A stretch of 64,000 nucleotides of DNA from positions 186,001 to 250,000 of the forward strand of contig NZ_AQRA01000004.1 in the NCBI RefSeq assembly GCF_000626715.1, written 5' to 3'. The DNA is from Aquimarina atlantica (lineage in GTDB: Bacteria; Bacteroidota; Bacteroidia; Flavobacteriales; Flavobacteriaceae). The notes beneath the pieces were generated by a model. That model made no database searches, was not told the DNA's origin, and saw only the letters and a list, made by a program, of their open reading frames with translations. Of the stretch, positions 9,802 through 16,865 are shown in pieces; positions within the stretch are counted from its first letter, which is position 1; every line of letters starts with the position of its first letter. A program made the translations under genes and the position numbers.

Positions 9802-11631
9802 ATGAATTATTTTAAACAAATTCTTCGCTTTGCGAAACCCTATAAATCTTACGGAATTTTAAATATAATCTGTAATATTTTTTATGCACTTTTCAGCGCA
9901 TTATCATTTATAGCACTAATACCAATGTTAAAAGTGTTGTTTAATAAAGATGAAGGTATTGTGTATCCAAAACCAGAATGGAAAGGCATTGTAAGTTCTA
10001 AGGAATATCTAACAGATAGCTTGAATTTATATATTTCAGATACCATTGCGTCTGAAGGAAAATTACAGGTTCTTACCTATATGATTATTGTAATCATATC
10101 TATATTTATGCTAAAGAACCTTTTTAATTACCTGGCAATGTATTTTATTACTTTTTTAAGAAATGGTGTACTAAGAGATATAAGAGATGAGCTTTATGAA
10201 AAAACTATTAGTTTACCACTGTCCTTCTTCTCTGAAAAAAGAAAGGGGGATACTATGGCTAGAATATCTACCGATGTCTTAGAAATACAACATTCCTTCT
10301 TATCTATATTAGAACTTATTGTAAGAGAACCTTTAACAATTATTTTCACCTTAATATTTATGTTTTACCTGAGTACAAAACTCACCTTATTTGTATTTAT
10401 TTTTATCCCGATCTCAGGGTTTTTAATTTCATTAATTGGTAAAACACTGAAAAAGCATTCTGACAAAGTTCAACAAGAACAAGGTTTTTTTCTATCTATT
10501 GTTGAAGAAACTCTTGGCGGATTAAAAGTAATTAAAGGGTTTAATGCTGAAGGGATTTTTGGAAAAAAGTTTAAGCAATCTACTAAAAGGTTTTTCAGCT
10601 ATTCGAACACCTTATTAAACAGGCAGAATCTAGCATCACCAACAAGTGAATTCCTTGGTATTTGTGTTATCTCTGTATTATTATGGTATGGTGGAAGACT
10701 TGTTTTTATAGATGGTTCCTTAGAATCAGAAATGTTTTTAGCTTATATCGGTTTAGCATATAACATTTTAACTCCTGCTAAGGCGATTTCAAAAGCCAAT
10801 TATGGAGTTAAAAAAGGTAATGCAGCAGCAGAGCGTGTACTCGAAATATTAAATACGACCTCTCCTCTACAGGATCATCCGGATGCAAAAGAGAAAAAAG
10901 AATTTACTTCTGATATTAGTATAGAAAACATCTCTTTTAAATATGAAGATGAGTATGTTCTAAATGATTTTTCTTTACAAGTACCCAAAGGCAGTTCTGT
11001 TGCCCTGGTTGGTCAGTCTGGTAGTGGTAAATCTACTATCGCCAATCTTGTTACTCGTTTTTATGATGTAAATAAAGGAAGTATAAAAATAGATGGTATA
11101 GATATCAAAGACCTCACCAAACACTCCCTAAGAGATTTAATGGGATTGGTTACCCAGGATTCTATTTTATTTAATGAATCTATAAAAAATAATTTATTGG
11201 TTGGAGATCCTACTGCATCTGATGAAGAAATTATAAAAGCCTTAAAAATTGCTAATGCGTGGGAATTTGTAAAAGATTTACCAACTGGTATTGAAACCAA
11301 TATAGGAGATAGTGGTAACAAAATTAGTGGTGGACAGAAACAACGATTATCTATAGCTCGTGCTGTGCTAAAAAATCCTCCGATCATGATTTTGGATGAA
11401 GCCACTTCTGCCTTAGATACTGAAAGTGAGCGGTTAGTACAATCTGCATTAGAGAACATGATGAAAAATAGAACAAGTATTGTAATTGCTCATAGGCTAT
11501 CTACAATACAAAATTCAGATTTAATCGTTGTAATGCAAAAAGGAAAAATTGTTGAACAAGGAACGCACGATGAGCTTATTGCTAAAGATGGTATCTATCA
11601 AAAGTTAGTTAATATGCAATCATTAGAATAG
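9802..11631 (+). CDS. MsbA-like ABC exporter (fused permease and ATPase)
   Basis: 609 aa half-transporter. The N-terminal type IV exporter domain has about six membrane helices (residues 1-330). The ATPase follows, with Walker A GQSGSGKST at 404-412, Q-loop VTQDS, signature ISGGQKQRLS around 508, Walker B IMILDE around 532 and the H-loop IAHRLST. It would work as a homodimer at the inner membrane exporting a lipid or drug-like molecule; MsbA function in lipid A flipping is a family-based guess. It ends just before the first sRNA repeat, whose hairpin (11669-11684) is followed by a T-run on the plus strand and could terminate this gene too. Confidence 0.9.
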   Translation: MNYFKQILRFAKPYKSYGILNIICNIFYALFSALSFIALIPMLKVLFNKDEGIVYPKPEWKGIVSSKEYLTDSLNLYISDTIASEGKLQVLTYMIIVIISIFMLKNLFNYLAMYFITFLRNGVLRDIRDELYEKTISLPLSFFSEKRKGDTMARISTDVLEIQHSFLSILELIVREPLTIIFTLIFMFYLSTKLTLFVFIFIPISGFLISLIGKTLKKHSDKVQQEQGFFLSIVEETLGGLKVIKGFNAEGIFGKKFKQSTKRFFSYSNTLLNRQNLASPTSEFLGICVISVLLWYGGRLVFIDGSLESEMFLAYIGLAYNILTPAKAISKANYGVKKGNAAAERVLEILNTTSPLQDHPDAKEKKEFTSDISIENISFKYEDEYVLNDFSLQVPKGSSVALVGQSGSGKSTIANLVTRFYDVNKGSIKIDGIDIKDLTKHSLRDLMGLVTQDSILFNESIKNNLLVGDPTASDEEIIKALKIANAWEFVKDLPTGIETNIGDSGNKISGGQKQRLSIARAVLKNPPIMILDEATSALDTESERLVQSALENMMKNRTSIVIAHRLSTIQNSDLIVVMQKGKIVEQGTHDELIAKDGIYQKLVNMQSLE

Positions 11632-11662
11632 GTAAATCCTCTATAATAGCAGCTATATAAAT

Positions 11663-11684
11663 AAAAAAGAGTGCTTCCGCACTC
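11663..11684. terminator. Terminator hairpin of sRNA copy 1, probably also of the ABC exporter
   Basis: GAGTGC (11669-11674), loop TTCC, GCACTC (11679-11684). An A-run on the left gives a T-run on the minus strand; TTTTTC on the right serves the plus strand. It is therefore probably bidirectional. Confidence 0.75.
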
Positions 11685-11794
11685 TTTTTCTTCACACAAA
11701 TCATCTTAATTTAGGGGCTTATTCTAAAATTAAAACTCACTCTTATTAATATCTTCCATCTTGGGGGGGATGGAAAGACTAACTTTCTTTAATT
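11663..11794 (-). ncRNA. Candidate C-rich-loop sRNA, copy 1
   Basis: Predicted transcript of about 130 nt on the minus strand. 5' hairpin: TTCCAT/ATGGAA stem around a loop with seven consecutive C. Middle hairpin: TTTTAATTTTAG with CTAAATTAAG, loop AATAAGCCC. 3' end: GAGTGC-GGAA-GCACTC followed by six T. The first stem differs from the other copies by a C:G for T:A exchange, a compensatory change favouring an RNA. Promoter at 11801-11832. This copy is the most diverged of the four. Confidence 0.6.
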
Positions 11795-11800
11795 ATGGTG

Positions 11801-11832
11801 TAAATATACTACAAAAATCCGGTACACACAAA
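11801..11832 (-). promoter_or_regulatory. Promoter of sRNA copy 1
   Basis: On the minus strand TTTG (11832-11829), 20 nt, TATATTTA (11808-11801). This fits the Bacteroidetes layout TTTG-N19-21-TAnnTTTG with A in place of the last G. Confidence 0.55.
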
Positions 11833-11896
11833 TAAAAATTGAATTTTATCTATAAAAAATACTTTTTATCAGCATAAATTAAAATACAATATTATT

Positions 11897-11920
11897 TTTT
11901 GTAGTATAAAACCTACAAAA
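11897..11920. promoter_or_regulatory. Inverted repeat upstream of sRNA copy 1
   Basis: TTTTGTAG, 8 nt, CTACAAAA. Its centre lies about 100 bp upstream of the -7 box. The same kind of element sits at the same distance upstream of copies 2 and 3, so it may be an operator or activator site. Confidence 0.45.
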
Positions 11921-11980
11921 TTATTTATTAAAAGAATAACAAATTTTCTTTAAATAAAGGTTATCGAAAGTATGAAACAG

Positions 11981-12005
11981 AAAAAAGAGTGCTTTCGCAC
12001 TCTTT
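11981..12005 (-). terminator. Terminator of sRNA copy 2
   Basis: GAGTGC (11987-11992), TTTC, GCACTC (11997-12002). On the minus strand it is a GAAA-capped stem followed by six T. Confidence 0.75.
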
Positions 12006-12108
12006 CTCTTCACACAAATCATCTTAATTTAGGGGCTTATTCTAAAATTAAAACTCACTTTTATAAAAACTTTCATCTTGGGGGAAATGAAAGAACTCAA
12101 TCATTATT
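11981..12108 (-). ncRNA. Candidate C-rich-loop sRNA, copy 2
   Basis: Transcript predicted from about 12108 to the A-run at 11981. 5' hairpin CTTTCAT/ATGAAAG with five C in the loop, middle AU-rich hairpin with loop AATAAGCCC, and terminator AGAGTGC-GAAA-GCACTCT with a GNRA tetraloop followed by T-run. Nearly identical to copies 3 and 4. An 18-codon frame in this copy is not kept in copies 1 and 4. Confidence 0.62.
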
Positions 12109-12114
12109 ACACTG

Positions 12115-12145
12115 TAAAGATAGTAATTATTTTTAATCCACCAAA
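12115..12145 (-). promoter_or_regulatory. Promoter of sRNA copy 2
   Basis: Minus strand TTTG (12145-12142), 19 nt, TATCTTTA (12122-12115). Further upstream the ATGCATTTTATC block is shared with copies 3 and 4. Confidence 0.55.
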
Positions 12146-12210
12146 TAAAAAATGCATTTTATCTAATAATTATGTTTTTTAACACTACATACCAAACTAA
12201 AAATATCAAT

Positions 12211-12232
12211 TTTGTAATACTAACCTTACAAA
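12211..12232. promoter_or_regulatory. Inverted repeat upstream of sRNA copy 2
   Basis: TTTGTAA, 8 nt, TTACAAA, centred about 100 bp upstream of the -7 box. Confidence 0.45.
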
Positions 12233-12263
12233 TGTTAATTTTTTAAATAAGAATATAAAACAG

Positions 12264-12286
12264 AAAAAAAGAGTGCTTTCGCACTC
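12264..12286 (-). terminator. Terminator of sRNA copy 3
   Basis: GAGTGC, TTTC, GCACTC; GAAA-capped stem and seven T when read on the minus strand. Confidence 0.75.
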
Positions 12287-12392
12287 TTTCTCTTCACACA
12301 AATCATCTTAATTTAGGGGCTTACTCTAAAATTAAAACTCACTTTTATAAAAACTTTCATCTTGGGGGGAATGAAAGAACTCAATCATTATT
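12264..12392 (-). ncRNA. Candidate C-rich-loop sRNA, copy 3
   Basis: 5' hairpin CTTTCAT (12354-12360) with ATGAAAG (12371-12377), loop containing six C on the RNA strand. Middle hairpin uses 12307-12316 and 12326-12335 with loop AGTAAGCCC. The terminator stem is 12271-12276 with 12281-12286, followed by seven T on the minus strand. Very close to copies 2 and 4. Confidence 0.62.
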
Positions 12393-12398
12393 ACACTG

Positions 12399-12429
12399 TA
12401 AAGATAGTAATTATTTTTAATCTACCAAA
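12399..12429 (-). promoter_or_regulatory. Promoter of sRNA copy 3
   Basis: Minus strand TTTG (12429-12426), 19 nt, TATCTTTA (12406-12399). Confidence 0.55.
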
Positions 12430-12493
12430 CAAAAAATGCATTTTATCTAAAAATAATGCTTTTAAACTTTAAAAAACAAACTAAAATTATAAA

Positions 12494-12515
12494 ATTGTAG
12501 TATTTTACTTACAAT
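12494..12515. promoter_or_regulatory. Inverted repeat upstream of sRNA copy 3
   Basis: ATTGTA, 10 nt, TACAAT, centred about 98 bp upstream of the -7 box, matching copies 1 and 2 in position. Confidence 0.4.
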
Positions 12516-12556
12516 CATAAATCATACTCAACTTGAACTATAAAGGTATAAAACAT

Positions 12557-12578
12557 AAAAAAGAGTGCTTTCGCACTC
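12557..12578 (-). terminator. Terminator of sRNA copy 4
   Basis: GAGTGC, TTTC, GCACTC; GAAA-capped stem and six T on the minus strand. Confidence 0.75.
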
Positions 12579-12685
12579 TTTCTCTTCACACAAATCATCT
12601 TAATTTAGGGGCTTACTCTAAAATTAAAACTCACTTTTATAAAAACTTTCATCTTGGGGGAAATGAAAGAACTCAATAATTAATT
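12557..12685 (-). ncRNA. Candidate C-rich-loop sRNA, copy 4
   Basis: 5' hairpin CTTTCAT/ATGAAAG with five C in the loop, middle hairpin with loop AGTAAGCCC, and terminator stem 12563-12568 with 12573-12578 followed by six T on the minus strand. The ATG of the small frame seen in copies 2 and 3 is changed to ATT here, which argues against a peptide. The promoter of this copy is divergent from the sigma gene at 12898. Confidence 0.62.
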
Positions 12686-12691
12686 ACACTG

Positions 12692-12722
12692 TAAAGATAG
12701 TAATTATTTTCAATTCACCAAA
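12692..12722 (-). promoter_or_regulatory. Promoter of sRNA copy 4
   Basis: Minus strand TTTG (12722-12719), 19 nt, TATCTTTA (12699-12692). At the place of the inverted repeat of the other copies this one has a direct repeat, CTACAAAATT and CTTACAAAAT (12781-12800). Confidence 0.55.
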
Positions 12723-12897
12723 CAAAAAATGCATTTTATCTATAAAAAAAGCAAATAATCATGTTTTTTAACGTTTATTCCTACAAAATTCTTACAAAAT
12801 AATATTCTTGTACTAATTAAACCTTTTTTATGTACATTAGTCATATAGTAGTACCAAGGTCAAATAATTGATCTTTTAAATAAAACTAATTTTACTT

Positions 12898-13446
12898 TTG
12901 AACACTCAAGAAGAACAAGAACTACTTATTGCCTTACAATCAGAAGAGCATATCAATATCGCTTTTGGTAAGCTTGTTGCTATATATCAACAACGGCTTT
13001 ATTGGCATATCAGGAATATGGTAAAAAATCACGATGATACAGATGATATATTACAAAATGTGTTTATTAAAGTGTATAAGAATATAAAAAAATTTAAAGG
13101 AGATAGTAAATTATATTCCTGGTTGTATCGCATAGCAACGAATGAATCTATTACTTTCCTTAATCAAAAAGCAAAAAAATATAATATTAGCAATGAAGAG
13201 TTAAGTTTACAGTTAATCCAAAATCTCGAAGCAGATGTATATTATGAAGGAGATCAAATACAATTAGAGTTGCAAAAGGCTATAGCGACGTTACCACAAA
13301 AACAACAACAGGTTTTTAATATGAAATATTTTCAGGAGCTAAAATATAGAGAGATGTCAGAAATTTTAGAAACCAGTGAAGGAGCATTAAAAGCTTCATA
13401 TCATTTAGCTTCAAAAAAAATTGAAGAATTTTTAAAAAAAGATTAA
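12898..13446 (+). CDS. RNA polymerase sigma-70 factor, ECF subfamily
   Basis: 182 aa starting at a TTG. Sigma region 2 (about residues 20-90) contains NHDDTDDILQNVFIKVYKNI and the SWLYRIATNESITFL block. Region 4 (about 125-180) has the helix-turn-helix LKYREMSEILETSEGALKASYH. It would direct core RNA polymerase to a small set of promoters in response to an envelope signal. The two downstream genes encode a membrane protein and a periplasmic helical protein, a conserved flavobacterial trio, with gaps of 31 and 9 nt. Confidence 0.88.
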   Translation: MNTQEEQELLIALQSEEHINIAFGKLVAIYQQRLYWHIRNMVKNHDDTDDILQNVFIKVYKNIKKFKGDSKLYSWLYRIATNESITFLNQKAKKYNISNEELSLQLIQNLEADVYYEGDQIQLELQKAIATLPQKQQQVFNMKYFQELKYREMSEILETSEGALKASYHLASKKIEEFLKKD

Positions 13447-13477
13447 ACCTTTTTGTATTAAAAAAGTCTTACTATCA

Positions 13478-14002
13478 GTGAAAAAAGATAAATCACATAA
13501 AAACAATGACGGCTTTAAAGTACCAGAAGGCTATTTTGAAAGTTTTGAAAACAAACTTTTTGAAAAAATAGCTTCTGATACCGATGGTCAACTGAGTTCT
13601 AAAATGGATTCGGGTTTTAAAGTTCCCGAAGACTATTTTGACACTCTTAAAGATACTGTATTGCAAAAAATTGATGATGATACCCCCAAAGGGAAACTTA
13701 TCTCATTACAAACCAGAAGAACTATTTTATACTTCTCTGGTATTGCCGCAATGATTGCTATTATCATATCTATATCCATACCAAAAGAATCAAAAGTAAA
13801 TTTTGATACTATTGAAGTTGCAGATATACATGCTTATTTTAATGAAGAAGATATTGAATTAAGCACTACAGAAATAGCAGCGCTATTAGATGATGATATT
13901 ACATATTCTGAGACATTCGAAAAAGAAATAATAGATGATGAAACTTTATTAGAATATTTATCAGAAGAGGATTTAGATGATGATATTATATTTACAGAAT
14001 AA
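13478..14002 (+). CDS. Single-pass membrane protein, probable anti-sigma partner
   Basis: 174 aa from a GTG start. The cytoplasmic part has two copies of one motif, GFKVPEGYFESFENKLFEKI at 11-30 and GFKVPEDYFDTLKDTVLQKI at about 47-66. A single membrane helix follows (about 85-105). The C-terminal part is strongly acidic and presumably periplasmic. Position directly after an ECF sigma gene and this topology suggest an anti-sigma role, but it has no recognisable zinc-type anti-sigma (ZAS) motif, so the role is inferred from context. Confidence 0.65.
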   Translation: MKKDKSHKNNDGFKVPEGYFESFENKLFEKIASDTDGQLSSKMDSGFKVPEDYFDTLKDTVLQKIDDDTPKGKLISLQTRRTILYFSGIAAMIAIIISISIPKESKVNFDTIEVADIHAYFNEEDIELSTTEIAALLDDDITYSETFEKEIIDDETLLEYLSEEDLDDDIIFTE

Positions 14003-15624: not shown

Positions 15625-15632
15625 TACCTTTG
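15625..15632 (+). promoter_or_regulatory. -7 box of the RsmB-like gene
   Basis: TACCTTTG followed by CACACC, 21 nt before the ATG at 15654. It overlaps the TTG that opens the longest frame, so translation should begin at the ATG. Confidence 0.6.
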
Positions 15633-15653
15633 CACACCTTAAAAAATAATACA

Positions 15654-16865
15654 ATGCGTTTACATAGAAATCTTGTCTTTGCTGTTATAGATGGATTACA
15701 TGAAATATTTAATGAAGGAAGCTATGCAGATAAAGTGGTTCAGAAATTATTGAAACGAGACAAAAGATGGGGATCACGTGATCGTAGTTTTATTGCAGAA
15801 ACCGTGTACGAAATTGTACGATGGAAACGCCTATATACCGAAATAGCTGAAGTAAAAGAACCTTTCTCTAGAGAAAATCTATGGAGGGTTTTTGCAGTAT
15901 GGGCTACACTAAGGGGCATTTCTCTACCCGATTGGAAACAAATTGGCCCTACACCTACTCGTCGTATCAAAGGACGTTTTGATGAGTTAAGTAAAATAAG
16001 AAAATTTAAAGAATCTATTCCCGATTGGTTAGATCAATTAGGAGAACAAGAACTGGGAAAACTCTGGGATAAAGAAATTAGTGCACTTAATGAACAGGCT
16101 CCTGTAATTCTTCGTGCAAATACTTTAAAAACATCAAGAGAAAAACTTAGAAGTCTGCTAGAAGATGAAAATATCGATACCGAATTTATTAAAGGATATC
16201 CAAACGCACTTAGGCTTACCGAAAGAACTAATGTCTTTACTACAGAAGCATTCAAAAATGGATTATTCGAAGTACAAGATGCTTCTTCTCAATTGGTAGC
16301 CGATTATCTAGAAGTACAACCAGGGCAACGTGTTGTAGATACCTGTGCAGGTGCAGGTGGTAAAAGCCTTCATTTAGCAGCATTAATGCAAAATAAAGGG
16401 CAGGTTATTGCTATGGATATTTATGGTAACAAACTTAAAGAGCTTAAAAGAAGAGCACGTAGAGATGGTGCACATAATATCGAAACCCGGGTTATTGAAA
16501 GTACAAAAGATATCAAAAAATTACACGGTAAAGCAGATCGTGTTCTTATCGATGCTCCATGCAGTGGTTTGGGAGTTTTGCGACGAAATCCTGATGCTAA
16601 ATGGAAATTACAACCTGAGTTTTTAGATAAAATCAGACATACACAAGCCGAAATACTTGAAAATTATGCTAAAATAGTAAAGCCCGGAGGAAAATTGGTA
16701 TATGCTACCTGTTCTATTTTACCCTCTGAGAACCAGGACCAGGTAAAGAATTTCCTTTCTAAGGAAACAGGGAATGATTTCACCCTAATCAAAGACAAGA
16801 AAGTACTTTCGCATCAATCGGGATATGACGGGTTTTATATGGCATTATTAGAAAGAAAACTATAA
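15654..16865 (+). CDS. RsmB/NOP-family RNA m5C methyltransferase
   Basis: 403 aa. An N-terminal NusB-like region (about 1-140) precedes a class I SAM-dependent methyltransferase. The SAM loop is DTCAGAGGK at 229-237. The PC motif DAPCSG has Cys303, and the TC motif ATCS has Cys353, the catalytic nucleophile pair of RNA m5C methyltransferases. 16S rRNA C967 is the RsmB target in E. coli; the exact target here is not proven. The TTG at 15630 that opens the frame lies within the promoter box, so the ATG is chosen. Confidence 0.88.
   Translation: MRLHRNLVFAVIDGLHEIFNEGSYADKVVQKLLKRDKRWGSRDRSFIAETVYEIVRWKRLYTEIAEVKEPFSRENLWRVFAVWATLRGISLPDWKQIGPTPTRRIKGRFDELSKIRKFKESIPDWLDQLGEQELGKLWDKEISALNEQAPVILRANTLKTSREKLRSLLEDENIDTEFIKGYPNALRLTERTNVFTTEAFKNGLFEVQDASSQLVADYLEVQPGQRVVDTCAGAGGKSLHLAALMQNKGQVIAMDIYGNKLKELKRRARRDGAHNIETRVIESTKDIKKLHGKADRVLIDAPCSGLGVLRRNPDAKWKLQPEFLDKIRHTQAEILENYAKIVKPGGKLVYATCSILPSENQDQVKNFLSKETGNDFTLIKDKKVLSHQSGYDGFYMALLERKL

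Follow-up and report, generated by a model that had tools for sequence, protein, structure and literature searches.

Four tandem, predicted small RNA genes of an apparently undescribed family, divergent from an extracytoplasmic function sigma factor gene in Aquimarina atlantica

In Aquimarina atlantica, the gap between an ATP-binding cassette (ABC) exporter gene (end 11631) and an extracytoplasmic function (ECF) sigma factor gene (start 12898) is occupied by four near-identical units, arranged head to tail on the minus strand. Positions are those of the window, the whole stretch of 64,000 nucleotides (nt) that was analysed (contig NZ_AQRA01000004.1, positions 186,001 to 250,000). Each unit comprises a putative operator, a promoter of the Bacteroidota type (TTTG-N19/20-TATMTTTA), a predicted transcript of about 130 nt and a terminator hairpin followed by a T-run. 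Because the promoters, terminators and operators are separate, each copy is argued to be a gene, and the array is read from its sequence as four autonomous genes, each with its own operator, promoter and terminator, divergent from the ECF sigma operon. These genes constitute a new family of a known kind, the small RNA (sRNA), and one that is apparently undescribed: in the open-licence literature on Aquimarina small RNAs and Flavobacterium sRNAs, no title or abstract opening describes it. The explanation favoured here, with a probability of about 0.6, is that the copies belong to a single family of small regulatory RNAs, each about 130 nt long, which would be induced by a signal, amplified by gene dosage and active in trans.

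Organization of the array

The features of the locus are listed in Table 1. An earlier note, made from the letters of this stretch, had given 11663, 11981, 12264 and 12557 as the starts of four near-identical minus-strand blocks; the blocks are real, and these positions are their 3' (terminator) ends. The predicted transcripts are 130 to 134 nt long, in agreement with the length of about 130 nt that the note had proposed, and are 82-98% identical (95-98% amongst copies 2-4, 82-85% between these and copy 1). Their first base is a prediction, made by setting the -7 box at -12 to -5, the position reported for the TAnnTTTG promoter box of Flavobacterium psychrophilum (PMC9723704). Four terminators with a T-run were found, all on the minus strand and one to each block as previously described, where shuffled sequences lead to an expectation of 0.1. 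The terminator loop in these copies is GAAA or GGAA. Copy 3 folds with a z score of -5.1, and none of 200 shuffled sequences folded as well.

The promoter noted on each block is also present, with 19 nt between TTTG and the downstream box in copies 2-4 and 20 nt in copy 1; the box is TATCTTTA or TATATTTA. Promoter identity is 91-96% amongst copies 2-4 and 63-67% between these and copy 1. The spacers between units are only 44-64% identical, so that the proposed contrast between a conserved unit and differing spacers stands in that respect; its limits do not, since conservation extends further upstream, into a GATAAAATRCATTTTTT box immediately upstream of the TTTG element, and the spacers carry the operator. 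A second, similar A/T-rich box can be seen by eye about 21 bp upstream of the GATAAAATRCATTTTTT box. Across the family, the promoter pattern TTG-N19-21-TAnnTT is found in 83 of 90 copies. A scan for the sigma-70 consensus returned 9 sites against 9.1 expected, and a search with the promoter-box pattern gave five sites, three of them sRNA copies, against four in the control. The exporter-side copy has its own promoter sub-type, TATATTTACAYCAT (window 11797-11850), which is common to the last copies in L010, L012, L013, L014 and L015. As this sub-type recurs between species, the positional identity of the copies seems to be kept. Overall, the sequence supports the earlier interpretation of the blocks as duplicated, separately transcribed sRNA genes as the best reading.

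Table 1. Features of the predicted sRNA array and its flanking genes (window coordinates)
Feature	Position	Strand	Remarks
ABC exporter, convergent neighbour	9802..11631	+	Open reading frame (ORF) map and Pfam
sRNA copy 1, most divergent, adjoins ABC exporter	11663..11796	-	Predicted transcript; terminator 11663-11690; covariance model (CM) score 150.4 bits
Copy 1 promoter region	11801..11850	-	GATAAAATTCA box; TTTG 11832-11829; TATATTTA 11808-11801
Inverted-repeat operator of copy 1	11899..11918	-	TTGTAGG-N7-CTACAA
sRNA copy 2	11981..12110	-	Predicted transcript; terminator 11981-12008; CM score 158.1 bits
Copy 2 promoter region	12115..12163	-	GATAAAATGCA box; TTTG 12145-12142; TATCTTTA 12122-12115
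Inverted-repeat operator of copy 2	12212..12231	-	TTGTAAG-N7-TTACAA
sRNA copy 3	12264..12394	-	Predicted transcript; terminator 12264-12293; CM score 157.4 bits
Copy 3 promoter region	12399..12447	-	GATAAAATGCA box; TTTG 12429-12426; TATCTTTA 12406-12399
Inverted-repeat operator of copy 3	12495..12514	-	TTGTAAG-N7-CTACAA
sRNA copy 4, adjoins ECF sigma gene	12557..12687	-	Predicted transcript; terminator 12557-12584; CM score 149.9 bits
Copy 4 promoter region	12692..12740	-	GATAAAATGCA box; TTTG 12722-12719; TATCTTTA 12699-12692
Direct-repeat operator of copy 4	12779..12795	-	GTAAGAATTTTGTAGGA; between divergent sRNA and ECF promoters
Conserved block before ECF gene, probable autoregulated ECF promoter	12816..12845	+	ATTAAACCTTTTTTATGTACATTAGTCATA; alignment of ECF upstream regions
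ECF sigma factor gene, divergent neighbour	12898..13446	+	Pfam (Sigma70_r2, Sigma70_r4_2)
Probable anti-sigma gene	13478..14002	+	Named from position and size alone; every Pfam family below cut-off

Predicted structure and conserved core

Three hairpins are predicted: hairpin 1, which is mostly a C-rich loop; hairpin 2, which is almost invariant, has the loop AGAxUAAGCCCC and is followed by the linker GAUGAUUUGUGUGA; and the terminator hairpin. Compensatory changes were found in 12 of 34 pairs, compared with 3.6 in shuffled alignments (none of 500 as high; shuffles ignore the relatedness of the sequences) and 2 to 5 when the partners were slid, for 28 sequences chosen for diversity from 90 and a structure that is the RNAalifold consensus of the same alignment. 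These changes support the predicted fold. Five of the 8 pairs in hairpin 1 show them, as do 6 of the 10 in the terminator; the invariance of hairpin 2 leaves little room for covariation (1 of 12).

The conserved core is found in most of the 90 copies. The CCCC[AG]A loop of hairpin 1 is present in 76, UAAGCC of hairpin 2 in 89, UAAGCCCC in the C-rich loop of hairpin 2 in 81 and AUGAUUUGU in the linker in all 90, while the full, almost invariant core of about 46 nt is present in 72.

Distribution of the family

A covariance model, R1, was built from 28 copies, picked for diversity out of the 90. It matches 65 of 66 Aquimarina genomes, 51 of which have 2 to 12 copies and 14 a single copy; the genome without a match is an assembly that is 89% complete. 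Under strict filters, which lose weak matches, R1 found nothing in 197 genomes from other genera of the Flavobacteriaceae. A pattern of the 19-nt core with one mismatch allowed matched 8 of 247 genomes of other genera, compared with 17 for the reversed control, and in those eight genomes and at further loci of the pattern searches the covariance model found no match with an E value better than 0.1. A further covariance model search of 40 other-genus genomes produced two borderline matches (33.1 and 31.2 bits), which were rejected as both lack the hairpin-2 core. A scan with a pattern for the divergent sub-type described below, which does not count species of the main type, retrieved 20 stretches: 12 are Aquimarina contigs (A. 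agarilytica and A. agarivorans amongst them), and the other eight come from unrelated bacteria, with no covariance model match better than E = 0.67. Viral contigs yielded one exact core match and no covariance model match. Amongst the genomes searched, the RNA family is, on this sequence evidence, restricted to Aquimarina, which is narrower than the Flavobacteriia considered in the earlier note. Since relatives within the genus have it as well, the RNA is probably a genuine regulator. In another genus of the Flavobacteriaceae, a hairpin with a UUCCCCAA loop and a T-run resembles hairpin 1 and lacks the hairpin-2 core (L268:1501-1601); it is perhaps an unrelated sRNA, or a terminator with a C-rich loop.

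Within A. atlantica itself, the four copies of the array are the only strong matches and lie at one locus; 13 others at E values up to 1 are short, with E values of 0.1 or worse. With copy 3 and its promoter as the query, nothing similar was found in phage or plasmid records.

Twelve genomes, most of them with a single copy and A. agarilytica and A. agarivorans amongst them, form a divergent group, delimited without a tree, which keeps the hairpin-2 core and linker and differs in hairpin 1 and in the terminator sequence.

Operators

A putative operator is present in 92 of 120 distinct regions upstream of family copies, as counted with patterns composed after inspection of the very sequences counted. 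An inverted repeat, GTARG-N7-YTAC, is found in 72 of the regions and lies 64-66 nt from the profile start in 66 of these (shuffles, 0.9). A direct repeat, GTARGAA-N4/5-GTARGA, is found in 20, always at 54-55 nt (shuffles, 0). The patterns leave 28 regions unmatched, several of which have degenerate forms by eye.

An unexpected feature of the array is its operator polarity. At 18 of 20 ECF loci the direct repeat belongs to the copy that adjoins the ECF gene (the exceptions are L023 and L036), and the remaining 45 copies at these loci comprise 38 with the inverted repeat, 7 with neither and none with the direct repeat. A slightly looser operator pattern was used for this count, and six larger regions that repeat counted loci were omitted.

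A genome search with the operator pattern returned 88 rows, a modest excess over 56 control rows; these represent 69 distinct places (palindromes are doubled), and three of the five exact matches are sRNA copies. Elsewhere in the A. atlantica genome (L157 near 1500; contig C7:275853), two divergent frames flank a perfect match to the inverted-repeat operator, and a TATATTTA box follows downstream. To judge from its sequence, this site may be another member of the sRNA regulon.

Gene neighbourhoods and the ECF sigma factor

Upstream of the ECF gene, a block, ATTAAACCTTTTT...GTC, is conserved across the aligned regions; a motif resembling an ECF-type promoter, AAACCTTTTT...GTC, is conserved there and again between the ECF gene and the next gene (13446 to 13478), and both sites are probably ECF promoters. 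This suggests that the ECF gene is autoregulated, with a second internal start. The ECF motif was not noticed before the sRNAs, and these are therefore probably not transcribed by the neighbouring sigma factor.

Seven larger regions containing the main locus were viewed (L129-L133, L135 and L137): all have the ECF gene and six, L130 being the exception, also have the ABC exporter. Extra copies were viewed in nine genomes, selected for having them and hence not a random sample of neighbourhoods (L118-L122 and L124-L128). In seven of the nine they lie near genes read as those for ECF sigma factors, FecR, TonB-dependent receptors and lipocalin-like lipoproteins. The view of L121 takes in the FecR and receptor genes alone, and those of L125 and L126 only adjacent metabolic genes. 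Most neighbour names are based on likeness of protein starts; in L122, sigma, FecR, plug/CarbopepD and lipocalin domains were confirmed with Pfam. In L134, the genes beside a lone copy look by eye like an ECF gene, a FecR-like gene and one for a large SusC-like protein. As the regions were not drawn at random, the ECF link of the family is only suggestive. On the ORF maps, a receptor-like gene appears by eye to be duplicated or broken up in L118, L119, L124, L127 and L128.

The single copies of the divergent species occupy several different gene neighbourhoods. In L098, L100 and L102, the copy adjoins a gene for an RsmB-like methyltransferase, without an ECF operon. The same gene is found near the main array (window 15630-16865), and the sRNA may be older at the RsmB-like site than its ECF neighbour.

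Comparison with known RNAs

The earlier note knew of no Rfam family of this shape in Flavobacteriia and had proposed Flavo-1 as one to try. Rfam 15 gave no match at gathering scores in the whole window; at E values up to 5, nine matches were returned for 11600-12900, all far below threshold, and Flavo-1 was not amongst them. The best-scoring bacterial sRNA family was BTnc231 (RF04180) from Bacteroides, a weak match that spans hairpin 2 and the terminator in three copies and reaches at most 21.1 bits, where the gathering score is 80.4 (E = 0.12). This match was absent from a narrower search, is at chance level and was rejected, as was Yfr1, the best bacterial match of the narrower search, which scored 20.6 of 38 bits, below threshold and on the other strand.

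Two multicopy systems invite comparison. LhrC1-5 of Listeria monocytogenes are near-identical sRNAs of 111-114 nt, four of the five being clustered; they have CU-rich motifs in loops and in a single-stranded stretch, and their expression needs the LisRK two-component system and rises under cell-envelope stress (PMC4132741, PMC12101431). The Aquimarina family resembles them in having several near-identical, clustered copies of similar length. In contrast, one of the three CU-rich sites of LhrC is its terminator loop, and in the window that loop is GAAA or GGAA; the C-rich loops of the Aquimarina RNA, in hairpin 1 (76/90) and hairpin 2 (81/90), fall short of the three motifs of LhrC. Moreover, the Aquimarina RNA has an invariant middle hairpin and comes from another phylum, and no Rfam family scored in the window.

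FopS of Bacteroides thetaiotaomicron comprises 14 paralogous sRNAs, with targets that include SusC-like outer-membrane transporters; each has a seed in a single-stranded 5' part and a lone terminator hairpin, and the members are classed as intergenic, antisense or derived from 3' untranslated regions and bind the RRM protein RbpB (PMC11697453). Both families belong to the same phylum and consist of multicopy paralogues with a 3' terminator, and the extra Aquimarina copies are often near TonB-receptor genes. Unlike FopS, the Aquimarina RNA has three predicted hairpins, two of them before the terminator, and occurs in tandem arrays. No match to the RRM_1 profile was found in its own genome. There was no Rfam match to FopS in the window, the membership of FopS in the Rfam copy used being unconfirmed. 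The likeness to LhrC and FopS is one of logic, and homology is not claimed.

Function: proposed mechanism and alternatives

The following mechanism is envisaged for a trans-acting regulator. A dimeric transcription factor would bind GTARG half-sites, arranged as a direct repeat on the first copy and as inverted repeats on the others, and would switch all copies together on a signal, perhaps one related to the cell envelope. The number of copies would set the dose and speed of the response; a role in dose is argued from the presence of several near-identical copies under one operator type. The RNAs would then pair exposed bases of the loops or linker with mRNAs in trans, probably near mRNA starts, and the pairing would block or change translation. 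That recognition occurs in trans, by RNA or protein, is argued from the conservation of the loop and linker bases. The copy adjacent to the ECF gene would share a regulatory region with that gene, thereby linking both outputs.

Several observations weigh against this explanation. Across six genomes, the 9-mer complement of the hairpin-2 loop (TAGGGGCTT) has 165 sites, sRNA copies included, compared with 185 for the reversed control; in genome G000 the figures are 30 and 45. Amongst 60 stretches around the TAGGGGCTT sites listed (26/26 of the G000 and 23/23 of the G019 sites outside sRNAs, and 12/19 of the G016 sites), no gene start recurs. Four orthologous pairs of sites do recur (L214/L237, L219/L240, L223/L239 and L226/L248), none at the start of a clear gene, and isolated sites lie 78 and 110 nt before frames resembling secreted proteins (L220 and L249). 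For the 300 frames of the window and 20 further regions, seed matches near starts occurred only in isolation. Nor is there consistent pairing with neighbouring genes: the sole signal amongst these, with a mean z of -2.1, involves the linker and the gene that follows the ECF gene. Most of it coincides with an ECF promoter motif, it is weak in the window, and this anti-sigma candidate was rejected. The operator-pattern search, with nine contexts read, revealed no clear regulon or regulator. The A. atlantica genome has no match to the Hfq and RRM_1 profiles, for which control genomes scored (Bacteroides for RRM_1). The most conserved part of the RNA includes a hairpin stem as well as its loop, which exceeds the needs of a pairing seed. 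Copies of the divergent group have a reduced C-rich loop in hairpin 1 or none at all, the four of them that were counted (L038, L080, L081 and L082) have no operator match, and the ECF signature is found in 0 of 12 stretches of this group; in addition, the copies in L123 are away from any evident ECF gene.

The function of sRNAs in the Flavobacteriaceae has been little explored, Rfp18 being one case that was studied. Shine-Dalgarno pairing is generally regarded as minor in this phylum and the A. atlantica genome has no Hfq match, which makes the choice of targets by such RNAs a question of interest.

Some of these results would suit an RNA that binds or titrates a protein. An RNA chaperone, translation factor or regulator might recognize hairpin 2 and the linker, with multiple copies raising the dose of a decoy in the manner of CsrB. 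The near-invariance of this part in both stem and loop, with covariation in only 1 of 12 stem pairs, is consistent with such a role, as are the negative target searches. However, each RNA has one core, without the repeated motifs of a titrating RNA, and no candidate protein emerged, Hfq and RRM_1 being without a match. This possibility is considered unlikely, although less so than the other alternatives.

It is much less probable that the blocks are short mRNAs for a nine-residue peptide, VSFNFR[VIL]SP, or for another small frame. The earlier note had regarded the reading frame as not preserved and a conserved peptide as a finding that would overturn its reading. Of the 90 copies, 69 retain a complete nine-codon frame that starts with GTG (GTG AGT TTT AAT TTT AGA xTA AGC CCC TAA), and its sole strongly variable inner codon switches amongst Val, Ile and Leu. 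Nevertheless, changes are not in excess at third codon positions in the 85 copies that have the core, invariance runs past the stop, with TTAAGATGATTTGTGTGA beyond it kept in 86 of 90 copies, and the divergent copies lose the start in 12 of 12 cases and the stop in 10 of 12 while the RNA core stays. Of the commonest frames listed, those other than the VSFNFR[VIL]SP frame and the forms containing it each occur in at most 10 copies.

Equally improbable is a cis element, in which stacked terminators, transcription roadblocks or a repeat array would insulate the ABC exporter from the ECF operon. The array does lie between two genes, contains four strong terminators and is found in the same place in several species, but promoters, operators and transcript interior are conserved besides the terminators, copies are also found at unrelated loci, and single-copy species keep the RNA core.

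A counterpart of Rfp18, an F. psychrophilum sRNA that affects metalloprotease mRNAs, is slightly harder still to credit. Both are structured, intergenic sRNAs of the Flavobacteriaceae, Rfp18 having at least three stem-loops, and the TAnnTTTG promoter class occurs in F. psychrophilum (PMC9723704). However, Rfp18 belongs to another genus, in which it is called widely conserved and a single gene was deleted (same source; the comparison is by description only), whereas no homologue of the Aquimarina family was found outside its genus, none of the 197 genomes of other genera having a match (the share of Flavobacterium amongst these was not established). Least credible of all is a mobile or REP-like (repetitive extragenic palindromic) repeat, which would suit a copy number of 0 or 1 to 12, the second or third locus in some species and the scattered single copies of the divergent species, but not the confinement of all four strong A. 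atlantica matches to one locus and the lack of a phage or plasmid match, which also answer the insertion element that the earlier note had named as a possible objection, nor inverted repeats around the array that are its own terminators and A/T-rich pairs, nor a promoter pattern kept in 83 of 90 copies.

Implications

Beyond a family of trans-acting regulatory RNAs, a more elaborate scheme can be proposed, in which one factor reads one half-site in two geometries, as a direct repeat on the first copy, between the divergent sRNA and ECF promoters, and as inverted repeats on the copies downstream. A single signal would then control the sigma factor together with an sRNA pulse scaled by copy number, and this sRNA, specific to Aquimarina, would retune receptors of the outer membrane. 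This polar regulatory ladder is quite unlikely as it stands, its odds being lowered by the lack of the ECF signature in the divergent group (0/12). If it were true, spread of the sRNA to other loci with ECF, FecR and TonB-receptor genes would have been selected for, the sRNA would be a partner in ECF signalling in multicopy species, and the single-copy group without an ECF neighbour would represent the older state.

The family is near-universal in the genomes of the genus searched, often multicopy, structured and provided with a readable operator. Its regulator, the effect of dose and the link with ECF sigma factors and TonB-dependent receptors are thus directly testable.

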